From Candidatus Nitrosotalea bavarica (lineage in GTDB: Archaea > Thermoproteota > Nitrososphaeria > Nitrososphaerales > Nitrosopumilaceae): DNA of 64,000 bases. Both the position numbers and the translations under genes were made by a program. Location: positions 1 to 64,000 of the forward strand of contig NZ_FUYK01000003.1 of assembly GCF_900167955.1 (NCBI RefSeq), written 5' to 3'. Position 1 is the stretch's first letter. The number at the start of each line of letters is the position of its first letter. Of this stretch, positions 3,944 through 54,553 are shown piece by piece. The notes under the pieces are model-generated. The model searched no databases. It was not told the origin of the DNA and saw only the letters and a program-made list of their open reading frames with translations.

Positions 3944-4455
3944 AGAGTAATTGCCCTTACCGGAGATATTTTATTCAGGACATGCACTATCTCGTCAATA
4001 TCATAAGGCTTGTAAATTATTGCAGACGCGTTGAGTGAAAACAACTTTTCACGCATAATATCTGACGAATCAGATGTCATCATTATGATTGCGGCATCTG
4101 GTTGGATTTTTCTGATTTTCTCAAATGCGTAAAATCCATCATATCGTTCCATCAAGACATCTAAAAATACCACGTCTGGTCTAAGTTTTTTATACGTCTC
4201 TACTGCCTCAGAACCATCATACCCCTTTCCGATTACCTGGATTCCCTTAATCTGTAAAAAATCAGACAGGATAGATACTACTCCCTTATCATCATCAATC
4301 ACTGTGGCAGTAAGGGAGTTTTTGTCATTTACCGGATAAGGCTGAGAATAACTTACCATTTGTTTTATGAAATGCAGAGTATGCATATTAGATGAATTTT
4401 GTTTAGATTGAACAAACAAATTTTTCCTAATTTTTGACCGATCAGAATATTTCAT
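3940..4455 (-). CDS. Single-domain response regulator (CheY-like)
   Basis: 171 aa. A 47-residue N-terminal extension precedes a receiver domain. Conserved residues are the acidic cluster D54-D56, the phosphoacceptor D99 (VFLDVLM), T127 and K149 (YKPYD). There is no output domain, so it must act through protein contacts. The 4-nt overlap with the downstream metalloprotease suggests a common operon. The extension is poorly conserved in appearance, so an internal ATG (residue 24 or 33) may be the true start. Confidence 0.88.
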   Translation of the reverse strand: MKYSDRSKIRKNLFVQSKQNSSNMHTLHFIKQMVSYSQPYPVNDKNSLTATVIDDDKGVVSILSDFLQIKGIQVIGKGYDGSEAVETYKKLRPDVVFLDVLMERYDGFYAFEKIRKIQPDAAIIMMTSDSSDIMREKLFSLNASAIIYKPYDIDEIVHVLNKISPVRAITL

Positions 4456-4527
4456 ACCGCATGTTGTACAAAAAGTTAATTTGAATAAAGTTATAGTTCT
4501 CAGTTTACAAAAGATTTTTTTGAATAT

Positions 4528-5031
4528 CTATCTCAGATAATTTTTGAATTTGCTCGAAAAAGTAAATATTGTAACAATCAGGATAAATGAAATCCCAAAC
4601 ATGGGTATGGTAAAAGTGCCAAACTCTGGAACTGTTGCAGTCATGGTCTTGGTCTGTGTGACAATGAAGCCATTGATCTTTGCACTAGCTGCTATATTGA
4701 AATTACCAGACGTTGCAGTAGGCGGAATTTTAAACTGTAGTGCAAAGTTTCCGTTTTGATCAGAGGATATGGTTCTGATGAGTATGAGATTTCCAGAAGA
4801 ATCTTTGATTTGTAATGCAACCAGTACGTTTGGTTGTCCTGTCACCATACCGCTTAGTTGAACTATATCTCCTGGAAGATAAGCGCCCTTGTTAGTTACA
4901 AGAGTTATTGATTGATCCACCTGAGCAAAAGAATTCAAGACTCCTGAAGAAGCAAGCAATGCTATCACGGTAAAAGATAGGAATCTATTCTGATTTTGCC
5001 TATGAAAGTCCGACAAAGTATGATAGTTCAT
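4528..5031 (-). CDS. Secreted PEFG-CTERM protein with MG2-like domain
   Basis: 167 aa from the ATG at 5031, which places a clear signal peptide (FLSFTVIALLASSG...SFA) at the N-terminus. The frame is open to 5082, but that extension has no signal character. One beta-sandwich domain follows (NKGAYLPGDIVQLSG, then NGNFALQFKIPP), like alpha-2-macroglobulin MG2 domains. The end is VPEFGTF, a membrane helix and a basic tail, the thaumarchaeal PEFG-CTERM signal. It overlaps the end of the giant Ig-repeat gene by 32 nt in another frame, so the two are probably co-expressed. Confidence 0.82.
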   Translation of the reverse strand: MNYHTLSDFHRQNQNRFLSFTVIALLASSGVLNSFAQVDQSITLVTNKGAYLPGDIVQLSGMVTGQPNVLVALQIKDSSGNLILIRTISSDQNGNFALQFKIPPTATSGNFNIAASAKINGFIVTQTKTMTATVPEFGTFTIPMFGISFILIVTIFTFSSKFKNYLR

Positions 5032-46336: not shown

Positions 46337-47500
46337 ATGTCTCTTCAAATAGGTCATATCAAAGGAATCAGCATTCGTTTACATTTTACGCTAATCATCA
46401 CTTTTGTCCTAATTGATTGGACTCTATCCACATATTTTATGCCAGATTATGTCAAAGGTCTTAGACCTGTGAGTTACTGGCTAATGGGTTCTGCTGGAAG
46501 TGTGCTTTTATTTTTCTCAATTTTATTACACGAGCTAGCACATTCAATGGTTGCAAAAAGGTATAACATACCTGTAAAAAGTATCACATTATTTATTTTC
46601 GGCGGAGTATCAGATATTGCAAAAGAGCCTACTGATTTTCATCAAGAGTTTAAGATGTCAATTGCAGGCCCACTTGCAAGTTTTGCATTAGGAGGAATCT
46701 TTGCTTTCTTTTACTGGGCCGTCTCAAGTGAAAGTTCTGGCAATGTCATTTCATATCTTGCGCAAATCAAAGGAGTCTTGTTCTATGCTGCAATGGCAAA
46801 CATCATACTTGGTGCATTTAATCTAGTTCCTGCATTTCCTCTTGATGGCGGTAGAGTTTTACGAGCAGCACTGGTAAGATGGAAAAAGGATTATCATGAT
46901 GCAACAAAGATTGCAACATCAATTGGCGTACTGATATCATATGCATTCATGGGATTGGGATTTATGATACTCATCAATGGTGATTTTGTCGGCGGTTTGT
47001 GGATATTATTAATAGGCTGGTTTTTGCACAATGGTGCCCAGTCATACATGTCACAATTTGAGCTAACATCTGCATTAAAAGGAATAATTGTTGGAAATAT
47101 CATGAACACTGAAATAATATCTGTTAGGCGGGACATGTCTCTTGATTTTGTACTAGAGAATTTTTTTATGACCAGTATGAAAAGCGAACTCCCAGTAACA
47201 GATGAGCGAGGCTATCTTTTAGGAATGATCACTCTAAAGGACACACTAAACATTCCAGAAAATAAAAGAGGTACTGTTACAGTTCAGGATATAATGATTC
47301 AAACAGAACATCTTGCAATAATGCAGCCAGATACAGAAGTTGAAAAAGCTTTCATACAAATGGTACAAAAGCGTGTTGGAAAGATCTTTGTATGTGACAA
47401 AGATGGAAAACTTTTTGGAGTTGTAAGTAAAACAGACATTATAGAACTTGCAAGTGAGCGACAAAAATATCTTCGTGAGATAAAGAGGACAAGTTCATGA
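46337..47500 (+). CDS. Site-2 protease-like (M50) metalloprotease with two CBS domains
   Basis: 387 aa, about six membrane helices. Zinc site HELAHS (H65, E66, H69) and third ligand Asp in NLVPAFPLDGGRVLRA. C-terminal CBS pair at about 250-380 (VGNIMNTEIISV, VQDIMIQTEHLAI). It cleaves membrane proteins; the CBS pair probably senses adenylates. Co-directional with Usp (4-nt overlap or close) and H+-ATPase, suggesting an energy/stress operon. Confidence 0.93.
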   Translation: MSLQIGHIKGISIRLHFTLIITFVLIDWTLSTYFMPDYVKGLRPVSYWLMGSAGSVLLFFSILLHELAHSMVAKRYNIPVKSITLFIFGGVSDIAKEPTDFHQEFKMSIAGPLASFALGGIFAFFYWAVSSESSGNVISYLAQIKGVLFYAAMANIILGAFNLVPAFPLDGGRVLRAALVRWKKDYHDATKIATSIGVLISYAFMGLGFMILINGDFVGGLWILLIGWFLHNGAQSYMSQFELTSALKGIIVGNIMNTEIISVRRDMSLDFVLENFFMTSMKSELPVTDERGYLLGMITLKDTLNIPENKRGTVTVQDIMIQTEHLAIMQPDTEVEKAFIQMVQKRVGKIFVCDKDGKLFGVVSKTDIIELASERQKYLREIKRTSS

Positions 47501-47514
47501 ATAATGTAGCAAGT

Positions 47515-47946
47515 ATGTCAAAGATACTCGTTGCAATTGATGGTTCTGAATTATCATTAAAAGCAGCAGATTATGCCATAGAGTTTGCAAAAAAGTACAA
47601 CTCTAAACTCATTATTTTACATGTCATTCATGTACATGCTGCAGGACTAGCATATGCAACAGAATCGATATTCAAACAATTCATTGAGAAAAGCAAAAAG
47701 GAATCTGAAGAGTGGTTTAATGCAATAGGTAAAAAAGCTAAAGAACTGGGAGTAGAAATAAAGGCTGAGACAGTAGAAGAAATCTATTCAGTTCCAGGAG
47801 CAATTATCAAACGTGCTGAAGAAGAGGATGCAGATGTCATCATCATAGGCGGTACTGGCAAATCTGGTTTTAAGCAATTTTTACTCGGCAGTGTTGCAAC
47901 CGACGTGGTAAGATATTCAAAATATCCTGTGTTTGTAATTAAATAG
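47515..47946 (+). CDS. Universal stress protein (UspA family)
   Basis: 143 aa from the ATG at 47515 (MSKILVAIDGSELSLKAA); the ATG at 47497, which overlaps the S2P stop, is the alternative. ATP-binding motif GGTGKSGFKQFLLGSVATDV. Seven nt precede the H+-ATPase gene. Likely adenylate-binding partner or regulator in this operon. Confidence 0.92.
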   Translation: MSKILVAIDGSELSLKAADYAIEFAKKYNSKLIILHVIHVHAAGLAYATESIFKQFIEKSKKESEEWFNAIGKKAKELGVEIKAETVEEIYSVPGAIIKRAEEEDADVIIIGGTGKSGFKQFLLGSVATDVVRYSKYPVFVIK

Positions 47947-47952
47947 ATTGCA

Positions 47953-50406
47953 ATGACAAGTCCCTTTCACAAGTCTCTTACTGCTGACGAAATTAAAAAA
48001 TCTACAGTGGATGATCTTTTTTTAGTCTTGTCCACAGGAAAAACTGGAATCAATTCTCATGAGGCAAAGAACCGGTTGGAAGAATATGGACACAATGAGA
48101 TTGAAGAAAAAAAGATAAATCCTTTTAGAAAGCTTCTCGGTTATTTTTGGGGCCCAATTCCATTCATGATAGAGGCAGCTGCAATAATCTCTGCGATTAT
48201 TTCTCATTGGGAAGATTTTTGGATAATAATATCACTGCTTTTGATAAATGGAATAGTTGCATTCTTTCAGGAACACAAGGCCGACAATGCAATAAATTTA
48301 CTAAAACAGAAACTATCCATTAGATCAAGAGCACTACGTGATGGCAAATGGGTTGAGCTTTCATCTCAAGAGATTGTACCAGGCGATGTCATACGTGTTC
48401 GACTAGGGGATATCATTCCAGCAGATGCCAAACTCTTTGATGGTGAATATCTTGATGTAGACGAGTCTGCCCTTACGGGAGAGTCACTGCCCGTGGAAAA
48501 ACATGTAGAAGATGTTGTCTATTCTAGCTCCATCGTACAAAAAGGTGAGATGAATGCACTTGTTGTTTCCACAGGGATGAGGACATTTTTTGGAAAGACT
48601 GCAAAACTTGTTGGGGAGGCAAGAACTAAAAGTCATTTCCAAAAAGCATTAATGAAAATAGGAAATTATCTTATTGCACTTGCAGTAGGACTAATCGCAC
48701 TTGTCTTTCTAGTGGCAATGTTCAGACACGAGAGCCTTCTTGAAACTCTACAATTTGCATTGGTGCTAATGATTGCCTCAATACCAGCAGCACTACCGGC
48801 TGTATTGTCAGTAACCATGGCTGTGGGCGCAACAGTTCTTGCAAAAAAACAGGCTCTTGTCAGCAAGCTTACTGCAATAGAAGAGATGGCAGGAGTTGAT
48901 ATTTTATGTGCAGATAAAACTGGAACGCTGACAAAAAACGAGTTAAGTGTTGCAGAGCTTGTTACATTTGATAAATTCACAGACTCTGATCTTTTGATGT
49001 TTGCTACTCTTGCATCAAGGGGAGAAGATACAGATCATATTGACAATGCAATCATTGCAAGAGCCAAGGCCTCAGGTGTCTTGGAAAAATCCAAGCCTTA
49101 CAAACAGATTTCTTTCAAACCATTTGATCCAATAATAAAAAGAGTTGAATCCAAAATAGAAGATAATTCGGGAAAAGAATTCATGGTGTCAAAGGGCGCA
49201 CCCCAATCAATACTTGCCCTTGTGCTAAACAAAGACGACATATCTGCAAAAGTAGATGAAAGTGTAAGAAGACTTGCATCCAAAGGATACCGCTCTCTTG
49301 GAGTGGCAAGGACAAATTTGCAAGGAGTCTGGGAGTTTGTAGGAATTATCTCATTGCATGATCCTCCAAGAGAAGATTCCAAGGAGACCATCAAGACTGC
49401 CAAGACCCTGGGTATCAATATCAAGATGATAACAGGTGACCACATTGATATTGCAAAAGAGATTGCAAGAGAGTTGAATCTTGGTACAAACATACAAGAT
49501 GCATCTCAAATAATTGACAAGACAGACCAGGAGATCCAAAGTGTTGTTGAGCAGGCAGATGGTTTTGCTCAAGTCTTTCCTGAGCACAAGTACAAGATAG
49601 TAGGGGCATTACAGGCAAAAGGACACATTGTGGGCATGACAGGAGACGGAGTAAATGATGCCCCCGCCTTAAAGAAGGCAGATGTCGGAATTGCAGTCTT
49701 TGGTGCAACCGATGTTGCAAAATCTGCAGCACATATCGTTCTTACCCAACCTGGAATTTCGGTCATCATAGACGCAATCCAAGAAAGCCGCAAAATATTC
49801 CAGCGAATGAATAATTATGCGATATACAGAATCAGTGAAACTATCAGGATCCTTTTCTTTTTAGTATTTTCCATAATTGCTTTCAGCTTTTATCCAATTA
49901 CTCCACTGATGATCGTCTTGCTTGCTATCTTAAACGATTTACCCATTATGACTATTGCTTATGACAATGTAAAGATCTCAACTAGCCCAGAGAGATGGGA
50001 TATGAGAAAAATTTTAGGAATTGCCACAGGTCTTGGCATAATAGGAGTAGTTTCTACATTTGTACTCCTATACATAGGAATGAACGTTTTTGATTTGAAG
50101 ACAGGTCCATTGCAATCATTAATTTATTTGAAGTTGTCAGTTGCAGGTCACATGTTATTTTTTGTTGCAAGAACGCGTGGTCATTTTTGGACAGTGAAAC
50201 CTGCGTTGAAATTATTTTTGGCAATCATTGTAACACAGACGATTGCGACAATAATTACTGCCCAAGGAATTTTGGTACCTGCAATAGGATGGAATAATGC
50301 GTTATTTGTTTGGGGGTATGCACTGGCATGGTTTTTGATAACGGACTTTGTGAAAGGTCCAATCTACAAGTTGTTGGAACGTAAGGGATCGAATTTGCTC
50401 AAGTAG
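47953..50406 (+). CDS. P3A-type (plasma-membrane) H+-ATPase
   Basis: 817 aa. The phosphorylated Asp is D321 in CADKTGTLTKNE. Other hallmarks are LTGESLPVEK, MITGDHIDIAKE and GMTGDGVNDAPALKKADVGIAV. Helix 4 has IASIPAALPAVL. Ten membrane helices expected. It lacks the long regulatory C-terminus of fungal and plant pumps. It extrudes protons at ATP cost, fitting life at low pH; K+ or Mg2+ pumps are less likely given the PMA-like signature. Confidence 0.94.
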   Translation: MTSPFHKSLTADEIKKSTVDDLFLVLSTGKTGINSHEAKNRLEEYGHNEIEEKKINPFRKLLGYFWGPIPFMIEAAAIISAIISHWEDFWIIISLLLINGIVAFFQEHKADNAINLLKQKLSIRSRALRDGKWVELSSQEIVPGDVIRVRLGDIIPADAKLFDGEYLDVDESALTGESLPVEKHVEDVVYSSSIVQKGEMNALVVSTGMRTFFGKTAKLVGEARTKSHFQKALMKIGNYLIALAVGLIALVFLVAMFRHESLLETLQFALVLMIASIPAALPAVLSVTMAVGATVLAKKQALVSKLTAIEEMAGVDILCADKTGTLTKNELSVAELVTFDKFTDSDLLMFATLASRGEDTDHIDNAIIARAKASGVLEKSKPYKQISFKPFDPIIKRVESKIEDNSGKEFMVSKGAPQSILALVLNKDDISAKVDESVRRLASKGYRSLGVARTNLQGVWEFVGIISLHDPPREDSKETIKTAKTLGINIKMITGDHIDIAKEIARELNLGTNIQDASQIIDKTDQEIQSVVEQADGFAQVFPEHKYKIVGALQAKGHIVGMTGDGVNDAPALKKADVGIAVFGATDVAKSAAHIVLTQPGISVIIDAIQESRKIFQRMNNYAIYRISETIRILFFLVFSIIAFSFYPITPLMIVLLAILNDLPIMTIAYDNVKISTSPERWDMRKILGIATGLGIIGVVSTFVLLYIGMNVFDLKTGPLQSLIYLKLSVAGHMLFFVARTRGHFWTVKPALKLFLAIIVTQTIATIITAQGILVPAIGWNNALFVWGYALAWFLITDFVKGPIYKLLERKGSNLLK

Positions 50407-50450
50407 GTTTTCAGGTTTGAGATTAATCGTATGGTTTAAGACTCGAGAAG

Positions 50451-51791
50451 GTGCTTTCAACGGCAGTGTCACTTTCGTTTCCCCTTACTGCATTTAACAA
50501 GATGTTAGAGTCCAATCCATACTATGATTACATGTTAAAGGGATTTGAATTTGCGGTAAAATACAATTCTGCACTTTTTGACGCAGGCTCAAAGGCATTT
50601 GAGACTTTTCTTAGTACAAGAAATGGAACAGCACAGAACATAAGAAAAACTATTAGATCTTCCTTTGATGTTACTCTACGAGATGATCTAAACGATGACG
50701 CACTGGCATCAAGTATGACAGATTATGTCGAAGCTTGGACAAAACTATGTGAACTTTTTGGATTTAGTCAATTTACTGCAAATTCCTATGACCTCTTCTC
50801 TTATGCAAACAGAATGCTTGAACCGTTAAGAGACAACGTCAATCGAACGCCATCGGAGGTCATAGAGATGAAAGGCAGGTTCAATCTGCTCCATTACACA
50901 TCCGATCTTCCCACTATGCACAAAACCCCTCTCCTTGTAGTAGGCTCGCTTATCAACAGATACTACATTTTGGATCTGTTACCTAATGTAAGCATAATAA
51001 AAAATCTCCAAAGACAAGGCTTTGACATTTATGCAACGGATTGGGGAACCCCCAAGTCATTTGACAAGGACTTGACACTTGAAACATATGCAGAAGAATA
51101 TGTAGAAAATGCAGTAGAAAAAGTCAAGGAAGTAACAGGTGCTGACAAGGTATCACTATTAGGTTACTGCTGGGGAGGAATTTTTGCGCTAATCTATTCT
51201 TCCACACATCAAGAGAATGTCAAGAATTTAATTTTGCATGCAACTCCAGTTGACATCAACAAGGAAAAGACAATAATAGAAAACTGGACTGCCCATCTCA
51301 ATGCCGACAATCTTGTTGACACATTTGGCAATATACCAGGCTGGCTCATCAACCTTGCATTTCTCTTACGTGATCCAGTGCAAACAATACTAAAGTATCC
51401 AAGGTATTTCAGCGAACCCCGAAGCCGTGATGAGATTACACAGTTTTTTGCAATTGAGACATGGTTATACGACAGTACACCAATAATAGGAGGAGTTTAT
51501 CGTGAGATAATTGATCAAGTGTATAGAAAAAACCTTTTGATAAAAAATCAGATGAAGGTAGGTTCCGATATTATAAATTTGAAAAATATTACAATACCAG
51601 TTCTGGATATAGTTGGCACCAGTGATGATCTGGTACCTCCATCAGCAAGCACATCTGTAATTAATGTGATAGGTAGTACAGACAAAAAACTAATTGAATT
51701 TCCAACAGGACATGTTGGTTTGTGTATAGGTACAGGCGCACATGAGAAATTATGGCCAGAGGTTGGAAAGTGGCTTGCCCAAAGGTCCTAA
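50451..51791 (+). CDS. phaC: Class III poly(3-hydroxyalkanoate) synthase
   Basis: 446 aa from a GTG start. The catalytic Cys is C240 in the lipase-like box GYCWGG. Asp is in DIVGTSDDLVP and His in TGHVGLCIG, completing the triad. It polymerises (R)-3-hydroxyacyl-CoA into PHA granules. Class III enzymes need a PhaE partner, not identified next to it. Follows the H+-ATPase by 44 nt. Confidence 0.93.
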   Translation: MLSTAVSLSFPLTAFNKMLESNPYYDYMLKGFEFAVKYNSALFDAGSKAFETFLSTRNGTAQNIRKTIRSSFDVTLRDDLNDDALASSMTDYVEAWTKLCELFGFSQFTANSYDLFSYANRMLEPLRDNVNRTPSEVIEMKGRFNLLHYTSDLPTMHKTPLLVVGSLINRYYILDLLPNVSIIKNLQRQGFDIYATDWGTPKSFDKDLTLETYAEEYVENAVEKVKEVTGADKVSLLGYCWGGIFALIYSSTHQENVKNLILHATPVDINKEKTIIENWTAHLNADNLVDTFGNIPGWLINLAFLLRDPVQTILKYPRYFSEPRSRDEITQFFAIETWLYDSTPIIGGVYREIIDQVYRKNLLIKNQMKVGSDIINLKNITIPVLDIVGTSDDLVPPSASTSVINVIGSTDKKLIEFPTGHVGLCIGTGAHEKLWPEVGKWLAQRS

Positions 51792-51871
51792 GATTTTACA
51801 TGCGGTTTAATTCTTGTAGGCGATAATTTTTCTTCAAGAAAAATATCAACACCATTGAAATTTTATTTGTT

Positions 51872-52699
51872 TTATTGTAAAATTTGTCTTGAGAGACTCT
51901 GTAGTCTTTCTAGTCTTCTGCATGATATTCCAGTTCGATTAGATAACAAACCCAAATTTGCTTTTATCAAATCTCTTATTAACATCATATTATTTCTTGC
52001 AAAAGATGCAAGTTCAAATTTGTTTAATCCAAGAATCGTAATGGGATATAGACCCTTTTCTTCAATCATCATTTCAAGACTTTTCTCTGGAGGATATCGC
52101 CAAGAAATTATTTTCTGACCTATGCAGCGAGCATATGTTCGTGCGTCATCAGATAATTTAGTATTACATATCAACATCTCATGTTTGTATTTATCTTCAA
52201 GATCTAAAAATCTTGCATGCGTATACAAGGATTCTTTGAGTCCAGTATACAGTCCGGATTGATTATGATATTTGCATTCAATTAGATATTTTTCTCCGCT
52301 AGAAACAAGCTCTGTAATGAGATCAATTTCATGATGTACACATTTACCTTGTACTATGGCTCCAATTGATAAAACATTATGACCATAGGCACCAAGTATT
52401 TCTCCCACATACGTCTCAAATCCATACCCTGCAGGCCCCATTCTCATGATGGATTCTTTTAGGCGATACTTGTGTCGAATTATAGTGCCGTCGTCTTCAA
52501 TTTTGAGGTAATTTAGAACCATTTTGTAAATTTCAGATGTCTTCATGTCATCGTATATCTTCTGAGATATCCCATCAGCTATTCTCTTTGCAGCCTTTCT
52601 GCTTGCCCCAGCCCTGATACATGTTTCTCGTAGTTTGAATTTGTTAAATGGCACTCGGGCACCATTTGCTTTGATAATCCAGATAGTTTTTTGACTCAT
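51872..52699 (-). CDS. ATP-cone plus PD-(D/E)XK (Mrr-like) nuclease-fold protein
   Basis: 275 aa from the ATG at 52699 (MSQKTIWIIKANG). Residues 1-90 are an ATP-cone (KANGARVPFNKFKLRETCIRA). Residues 95-205 hold the nuclease core: GFETYVGEILGAYG, then HEIDLITELV and LIECKYHNQSG, giving Asp-(x)n-Glu-x-Lys. A helical C-terminal region with SRQILQ ends it. Nucleotide-controlled DNA cleavage or binding is implied. Divergent from the AMP phosphorylase relic. Confidence 0.82.
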   Translation of the reverse strand: MSQKTIWIIKANGARVPFNKFKLRETCIRAGASRKAAKRIADGISQKIYDDMKTSEIYKMVLNYLKIEDDGTIIRHKYRLKESIMRMGPAGYGFETYVGEILGAYGHNVLSIGAIVQGKCVHHEIDLITELVSSGEKYLIECKYHNQSGLYTGLKESLYTHARFLDLEDKYKHEMLICNTKLSDDARTYARCIGQKIISWRYPPEKSLEMMIEEKGLYPITILGLNKFELASFARNNMMLIRDLIKANLGLLSNRTGISCRRLERLQSLSRQILQ

Positions 52700-52829
52700 G
52701 ATGAGAAACTCCACTCTAGTCGTAAAAAGTTATCTGAGAATTATTGTAGAACATCGTGAACATCCAAGGTTTACAATCAAAGATGAAAATTGTACTCAAA
52801 TGATATATCCTACAGAAAATAGAAAAATC

Positions 52830-53117
52830 ATGAAAATGCAGTTAAGAGTTGATATTATAGGAATAGAATCGGGCGGAAAACCAATAGTTTTTCTAAACAA
52901 GCATGATGCCGACGAGGTTGGGGTGACCGCATTAGGAAGAATCATAGTAAATTCAAAAAGAAAAGAGACAACTGCAATTGTTAATATTTCTACAACTTAT
53001 GTCAAGAAAGGTTCCATTGGAGTAAATGACGAGGTAAGAAAAAAACTTGATCTTAGACAAAACTCATGGAAAAGCGAGCCAAAATGTTACACGATCTTGG
53101 ATGGGAATATGCAATGA
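52830..53117 (+). pseudogene. N-terminal fragment of archaeal AMP phosphorylase
   Basis: From the ATG at 52830 about 75 residues match the small N-terminal domain of archaeal AMP phosphorylase (DeoA-type): MQLRVDIIGIESGGKPIVFL, then NKHDADEVGV and TYVKKGSIGVNDEVRKKLDL. After about 53050 the frame reads out-of-frame RuBisCO sequence and stops at 53117. The catalytic thymidine-phosphorylase-like domains (about 420 residues) are missing. The normal enzyme splits AMP to ribose 1,5-bisphosphate and adenine. Confidence 0.78.
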
Positions 53118-53695
53118 TAGATGTAGTAACTGTAGGAGTATCTGCAGTGCAGACCTTGCGTGAGGTATGTCAAGATTATAGACTTGCAATTCATGCTCAT
53201 CGAGCCATGCATGCGGCTTTTGACAGAAATCCGAAACATGGAATCACAATGCTAGTTCTTGCAAAGATAATGAGAATGATTGGAGTTGATCAGATACACA
53301 TAGGGACTATAGTTGGCAAACTGGTTGGAAGTAAAGATGAAGTTCTGGATATCAAAGATGAGATTACATCCAAGAACATACTTGAAAAAAATCTCAAAGG
53401 AGAACAGCAAATGCTTTCGCAGGACTGGACAAACTTTAAACCAGTATTACCCATCTCGTCGGGCGGATTACATCCAGGTTTACTGCCATCTGTTATGAAT
53501 ATTCTTGGAGATGACATAGGACTACTTGTAAGCGGAGGAATTCATGGCCATCCACAAGGGACTAGATCTGGTGCAAAGGCTGCAATGCAGGCAATTGAAT
53601 CTACCATGCAAGAAATACCTTTACAGGTGTATGCAAAAACTCATCTTGAATTAAAGCAATCTCTTGGCAAATGGGGCTTTAGAAAGCCAAAATGA
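53066..53695 (+). pseudogene. rbcL: C-terminal fragment of form III RuBisCO large subunit
   Basis: 209 codons from an ATG at 53066. Typical form III segments are MEKRAKMLHDLGWEYAMIDV, IHAHRAMHAAFDRNPKHGI, GVDQIHIGTIVGKLVG, SSGGLHPGLLPSVMN and GGIHGHPQGTRSGAKAA. The N-terminal half, with the carbamylated Lys and Mg-binding Asp/Glu, is gone; upstream of 53057 the frame is closed by stops. A functional carboxylase is not possible from this piece. It sits in another frame than the preceding AMP phosphorylase piece. Confidence 0.85.
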
Positions 53696-53788
53696 AAGAT
53701 ACCAGTCAAATAAAAAACTGAATTGATTGATTATCATATTTGATATTTAATCGCTCAAGTAAAATACCATGAATTATAGATTATATTC

Positions 53789-54553
53789 ATGGGATTGAAG
53801 ATAGACGAACTGGTAGTTGGCAATTACATGTCAGAGTATCCCATATCTGTCAAGCCAGAAATTCCATTTGAGACAGTTGTTGATTTTATGAACGAGAGTA
53901 GGTTTTCAACATTAATTGTGATGGATGAAACAAACCCAACTCCCATTGGAGTATTTACAGAAAGAGGAATCATCAAGCATGTTGCATCCGGCAAAGCTAT
54001 GAATCAAAGTATCAAACAAGAACTCATCCAGCCATTTTTTTCAGTCACGCCAGAAACTACTATACTTGAGGCTGCAAAATTGATGATATCTAAAAAGGCA
54101 AGGATTTTGGTATTTGCAGATACAGACAAACTAATTGGAACCATCACAGCATCTGACATGCTAAGAGCATTTAGTGAAACAGATAAAGCTCCTAGTCTTG
54201 AGAAGGTGATTAGTAAAACAGTCTATCATTGCCCATTTGATACCACGATTTTAGATGCAGTAAAACTCCTTGATGAAAAAAACATCGGCAGCATACTAGT
54301 AACACGTGATTCATTGCACGGAATATTTACACAAAGAGATCTGGTCAGAGTTCTTGCAAAAGAAGAAAAACTTGATAACAGTGTAGGAGATTATTCTTCA
54401 TTCCCACTTGTTACAGCAAAAAAAGACATTTTGGCAAATGAGGCTGCAAAAATCATGTCATCTAACAAGATCAAAAGATTAGGCTTGACAGATAATAATT
54501 CCATTGTCGGAATTGTCACTGCAAGAGATATTGTTGATGCATATCAGATGTAG
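53789..54553 (+). CDS. Protein with four CBS domains
   Basis: 254 aa, four CBS motifs in tandem: VGNYMSEYPISVK, ELIQPFFSVTPETT, ISKTVYHCPFDTT and the end SSFPLVTAKKDILANEA, each with a G(I/V)xTxRD-type turn. No other domain. Presumably an adenylate sensor acting on partner proteins. Stand-alone; TATA-like region upstream. Confidence 0.9.
   Translation: MGLKIDELVVGNYMSEYPISVKPEIPFETVVDFMNESRFSTLIVMDETNPTPIGVFTERGIIKHVASGKAMNQSIKQELIQPFFSVTPETTILEAAKLMISKKARILVFADTDKLIGTITASDMLRAFSETDKAPSLEKVISKTVYHCPFDTTILDAVKLLDEKNIGSILVTRDSLHGIFTQRDLVRVLAKEEKLDNSVGDYSSFPLVTAKKDILANEAAKIMSSNKIKRLGLTDNNSIVGIVTARDIVDAYQM

Follow-up and report, generated by a model that had tools for sequence, protein, structure and literature searches.

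The window, a 64,000-nucleotide stretch of DNA, belongs to a Nitrosotalea-type ammonia-oxidising archaeon (genome G000; 1.55 Mb, 19 contigs, 97% complete, archaeal amoA present), whose closest named relatives are Candidatus Nitrosotalea, and contains two adjoining gene stumps, one of deoA and one of rbcL. Judged from sequence comparison, these are very probably the remains of an AMP-pathway operon that was broken by one 2.83-kb repeat-flanked deletion, leaving both the pathway and the stumps non-functional. In the AMP pathway, AMP phosphorylase converts AMP and phosphate to R15P, R15P isomerase converts R15P to RuBP, and form III RuBisCO converts RuBP to two molecules of 3-phosphoglycerate.

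The deoA and rbcL stumps

The original prediction placed an AMP phosphorylase N-terminus against the C-terminus of a form III RuBisCO in a different frame. Matches to TIGR03327 and TIGR03326 confirmed this arrangement, and the junction proved to be an 11-bp stretch, 53055-53065 (Table 1). The two stumps lie in different frames, each of which is still open.

Table 1 Features of the relic locus, in window coordinates
Feature	Position	Strand	Evidence
Nuclease gene plus relic segment, missing from G036, where the PhaC-like gene adjoins the CBS gene	51799..53727	.	blastn
Intact neighbour, ATP-cone / AF1548-like nuclease-type gene	51872..52714	-	Pfam PF03477 + PF22357
deoA stump (AMP phosphorylase, N-terminal domain, residues 1 to ~73 of 513)	52836..53054	+	TIGR03327
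Deletion junction AGACAAAACTC, imperfect 11-bp direct repeat	53055..53065	+	copies in deoA and rbcL of relatives
rbcL stump (form III RuBisCO, C-terminal 209 residues, open frame from internal ATG)	53066..53695	+	TIGR03326

Window positions 52830-53114 match only positions 1-74 of the 500 in the AMP phosphorylase family TIGR03327 (E 1.4e-10). Homology begins with MQLRV, two codons past an ATG at 52830, and over residues 1-76 the stump shares 86% identity with the intact protein of G021. With a score of 40.4 bits where the cut-off is 535, the stump is not a full AMP phosphorylase by the TIGR03327 test, which requires full length: the catalytic and C-terminal domains are missing. An intact congener deoA scores 569.6 bits.

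The rbcL stump (53066-53692) matches positions 226-426 of the 426 in TIGR03326, type III RuBisCO (E 9.6e-79), as well as Pfam PF00016 (E 1.4e-54), and is 86% identical to its G025 counterpart. Its 265 bits fall short of the 497-bit cut-off for a full form III enzyme. The C-terminal substrate-binding motifs HAHR, GKL, SSGGLHPG and GGIHGH are retained, and the KDDEN motif (carbamylated lysine and Mg ligands) of the intact homologue falls in the deleted part. From established knowledge of the enzyme, a stump without KDDEN cannot be an active RuBisCO.

An intact operon in congeners and a single deletion

The best matches to the locus among GTDB genomes were L004 (Ca. Nitrosotalea sed-bin190, G021), L005 (G028) and L006 (G033). 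Gene order in G021, G025, G028 and G033 is the nuclease gene on the opposite strand (71-74% identical to the window copy), then deoA (513-514 amino acids), a middle gene (281-282 amino acids) and rbcL (435 amino acids), these three in one direction. The best family for the middle gene is TIGR00511 (E 2.2e-59), although its 201 bits do not reach the cut-off of 314, and a PDB search returned 3a11 as best match, with the 5yfj group of R15P isomerases next. In the alignment to 3a11 the gene conserves the Cys and Asp motifs, whose catalytic role is established for TkR15Pi. By these similarities we assign the middle gene as a TkR15Pi-type R15P isomerase; since it lies between deoA and rbcL, the operon is predicted to encode the complete AMP pathway. 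The full gene set occurs in these four genomes and in six other congeners.

Aligned to L004, window 51867-53060 corresponds to 161-1348 and window 53055-53697 to 4176-4818. Relative to the four congeners, 2830 or 2833 bp between the repeat copies is missing, comprising ~437 codons from the end of deoA, the isomerase gene in full and ~226 codons from the start of rbcL; because this length is 1 mod 3, the deoA-rbcL fusion is out of frame. The left and right alignments overlap on AGACAAAACTC, which is also the repeat copy in rbcL in 4/4 relatives, and the copies in their deoA genes read AGACAGCACTC, AGACAACATTC, CGGCAAAACTC and CGACAAAACTC. The two G028 copies share 10 of 11 bases, equalled by 56 of 1,988,536 deoA-rbcL position pairs (2.8e-5), and those of G021, G025 and G033 share 9 of 11, with 2.6e-4 to 2.9e-4 of pairs matching as well, all of these frequencies having been computed after the junction was seen. 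No congener has the same fusion, G000 being the only one of 37 genomes with a truncated RuBisCO. Both marks of a deletion relic are present: the relatives keep the orthologous genes intact, and the deletion is defined relative to them.

By this comparison a single 2.83-kb deletion between imperfect 11-bp direct repeats, arising probably by slipped-strand replication or short-homology annealing, removed the isomerase gene and joined deoA to rbcL out of frame. The organism would no longer have the AMP pathway, and both stumps would be non-functional and decaying. The mechanism is ordinary gene decay.

Much of this had been anticipated. The original prediction explained the fusion by a deletion of about 420 residues of one gene and 230 of the next, close to the ~437 and ~226 found, and relatives do have intact deoA and rbcL in one operon behind the same upstream gene, such that one deletion explains the fusion. 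The intact pair that was to be looked for in related genomes was found in four congeners, in one operon; the genes are not immediate neighbours as had been supposed, the R15P isomerase gene lying unforeseen between them. The intact congener operon and the single deletion also support the proposal that an ancestor had the pathway from AMP to 3-phosphoglycerate and then lost it. Downstream synteny with L004 via a CBS gene was considered and rejected, as L004 has a 61% paralogue at that place and the 84% orthologue sits on another contig; it is thus the upstream synteny alone that supports orthology.

Beyond the stumps, the whole of genome G000 yielded no second RuBisCO and no second N-terminal AMP phosphorylase match. 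An R15P isomerase gene, for which a search elsewhere had been suggested, was not found anywhere in the genome; in relatives it is the gene between deoA and rbcL. The stumps as an old duplicate of an intact copy, the case that had been named against the deletion, are rejected, there being no other copy of the three genes in G000. A further TIGR03327 match at C11:135105 covers positions 88-229 only, within an intact 355-codon frame common to nearly all congeners, and is probably the homologous anthranilate phosphoribosyltransferase. With no R15P isomerase and only stumps of deoA and rbcL, G000 lacks a complete AMP (pentose bisphosphate) pathway. Most congeners carry a second IF-2B-family isomerase (37-42% identity to the R15P isomerase query; frames of 350-400 codons), probably a methylthioribose-1-phosphate isomerase, which is missing from G000, G007, G012, G014, G015, G016, G019, G022 and G030.

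Selection on the stumps and alternative readings

A codon model with separate omega for the window-lineage branch and elsewhere indicated relaxed selection on the two stumps together in this lineage (0.243 versus 0.072; 2ΔlnL 7.94) and no difference for the neighbouring nuclease gene (0.100 versus 0.114; 2ΔlnL 0.18). The signal depends mainly on the short deoA stump (2ΔlnL 7.54) and is modest for the RuBisCO stump alone (2ΔlnL 3.07). Omega = 1 along the whole branch was rejected (2ΔlnL 4.61), which places the loss part-way along the branch. In the rbcL stump, 209 codons are open and 1 of 67 near-invariant RuBisCO sites has changed; this single change and the weak rbcL signal fit a recent loss. 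Recency, part of the original prediction, holds in relative terms by these measures and by the rejection of omega = 1, and carries no absolute date.

Retention of the open frames, an omega below 1 over the branch as a whole and the near-complete retention of near-invariant RuBisCO sites might suggest that short proteins from the stumps still serve a purpose, the phosphorylase N-terminal domain by itself and the C-terminal half of RuBisCO in a new role. We find this hardly credible: the catalytic domains are gone from the phosphorylase stump and the KDDEN motif from the RuBisCO stump, omega is raised, and open frames are also expected after a recent loss, 62 to 31% of simulated stumps being without a stop at 0.02 to 0.05 neutral changes per site. 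The raised omega on this lineage is likewise not expected of an assembly artefact, in which the operon would be intact in reality and 2.83 kb skipped by the assembler or by a chimeric read. Such an error is very unlikely, even though the assembly is in 19 pieces and a junction on a short repeat is also what template switching would give, because assemblers normally work with k-mers or overlaps longer than 11 bp and because, in a genome that is 97% complete, no other contig carries the missing middle.

A different history is that the relic arrived already broken, as a nuclease-plus-operon segment from a G025/G021-like donor that entered the site between PhaC and CBS, and was never functional here. 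In a blastn comparison with L168 (G036), window 50347-51798 and 53728-54195 aligned, with 65 bp between them in G036; PhaC-like and CBS genes are adjacent in this near relative, so the intervening segment (Table 1) reflects either an insertion in G000 or a deletion in G036. RuBisCO is lacking from the four species closest by rpoB (G036, G007, G017 and G015), and the relic rbcL groups with G025/G021, whereas rpoB puts G000 outside, with RuBisCO-less species. However, vertical descent was not rejected when the group's four intact genes were constrained to cluster (AU p 0.123), and at synonymous sites the stumps diverge from G025 (0.48-0.57) about as much as rpoB does (0.62), the pattern expected under vertical descent. 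The divergence pattern of the nuclease gene also differs from that of the operon, and we regard the arrival of a broken relic as improbable. It touches the origin of the operon and not the deletion itself, the inference of which is independent of whether the operon was inherited or acquired. By the same AU result, horizontal transfer of the operon, suggested by the gene trees, is not significant. Window 47497-50406, between a site-2-protease-like gene and PhaC, holds a universal-stress-type protein and a P-type cation ATPase (817 aa); this ~2.85-kb block is missing from the same place in G036, which marks the region as variable.

Distribution and apparent recurrent loss in the genus

Among 37 genomes of the genus, RuBisCO is full length in 10, all exceeding the TIGR03326 cut-off, a stump in one (G000) and absent from 26; the corresponding numbers for the 19 genomes at least 90% complete are 7, 1 and 11. 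Across the family, RuBisCO matches occurred in 13 of 250 genomes, from two genera. On the rpoB tree, RuBisCO presence needs at least seven state changes, a count that does not separate gain from loss.

Two further genomes show other breakage of the operon. In G002 (C1 = L147:5597-9182), 5198 bp is missing in comparison with G033, a close relative; the gap starts inside the nuclease gene and takes in deoA, the isomerase gene and rbcL, and the flanks align on both sides. The G002 junction has ~3 bp of microhomology, and the nuclease gene is cut short. G018 (C95 = L146:7317-7537, minus strand) retains a decayed deoA C-terminal tail with stops (~70 codons, residues ~440-513), with no isomerase or RuBisCO gene beside it. 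A phosphoribosyltransferase gene and a cluster resembling a membrane-bound [NiFe]-hydrogenase / complex I flank this tail. As the ends differ in G000, G002 and G018, the events are separate, and G002 and G018 look like independent losses of the operon.

The AMP operon in the genus is probably an accessory pathway, kept by some species and lost independently by others. More speculatively, and in our estimation rather doubtfully, it could be a mobile accessory module of acid-adapted ammonia-oxidising archaea, at times moving together with the ATP-cone nuclease gene and subject to repeated gain and loss. If so, form III RuBisCO would be a species-level switch in the genus, with G000 as one switch-off in progress.

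Among ammonia oxidisers, form III RuBisCO was previously on record as an oddity of a single Nitrosotalea species: Herbold et al. 2017 (PMC5767755) described a type III RuBisCO adjacent to AMP phosphorylase only in Ca. N. bavarica (SbT1), as a species-specific feature. SbT1 is of the same genus-level group as G000 and has the same two enzymes side by side, but its genes are intact and the window operon is broken. Those authors proposed an Mj0601/Thi4-type protein, encoded elsewhere, for the R15P isomerase role; the congeners here have a TkR15Pi-type gene between deoA and rbcL, and their operon, as far as sequence can tell, points to this gene rather than the Mj0601/Thi4-type, at least for the genomes compared here. 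Each of the three enzymes in the congener operon has a single counterpart, by family, in the archaeal pentose bisphosphate (AMP/NMP) pathway of Thermococcales (PMC9700705), whereas the window has two stumps only and does not encode the pathway. Heterotrophic marine Thaumarchaea also have a form III RuBisCO (form III-a), but without ammonia oxidation or AMP phosphorylase (PMC7300363), in contrast to the amoA of G000 and the three-gene operon of its congeners. A search of the open-access literature turned up no description, for this group, of a pseudogene for RuBisCO or the AMP pathway, or of a decayed AMP-pathway operon.

The present comparison places the operon in 10 of 37 congeners, together with the isomerase gene that the earlier report sought elsewhere, and shows three different broken or deleted states, which make a clean case of recurrent loss. 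Close relatives that differ in whether they have the pathway offer a testable system for the role of AMP-derived RuBP and RuBisCO in an organism that fixes carbon by another route. A different gene arrangement occurs in a Nitrosopumilus MAG (L011, 4475-8175) and a Nitrosarchaeum MAG (L016, 4487-8193), where the isomerase gene and rbcL share one strand and deoA converges on them from the other.
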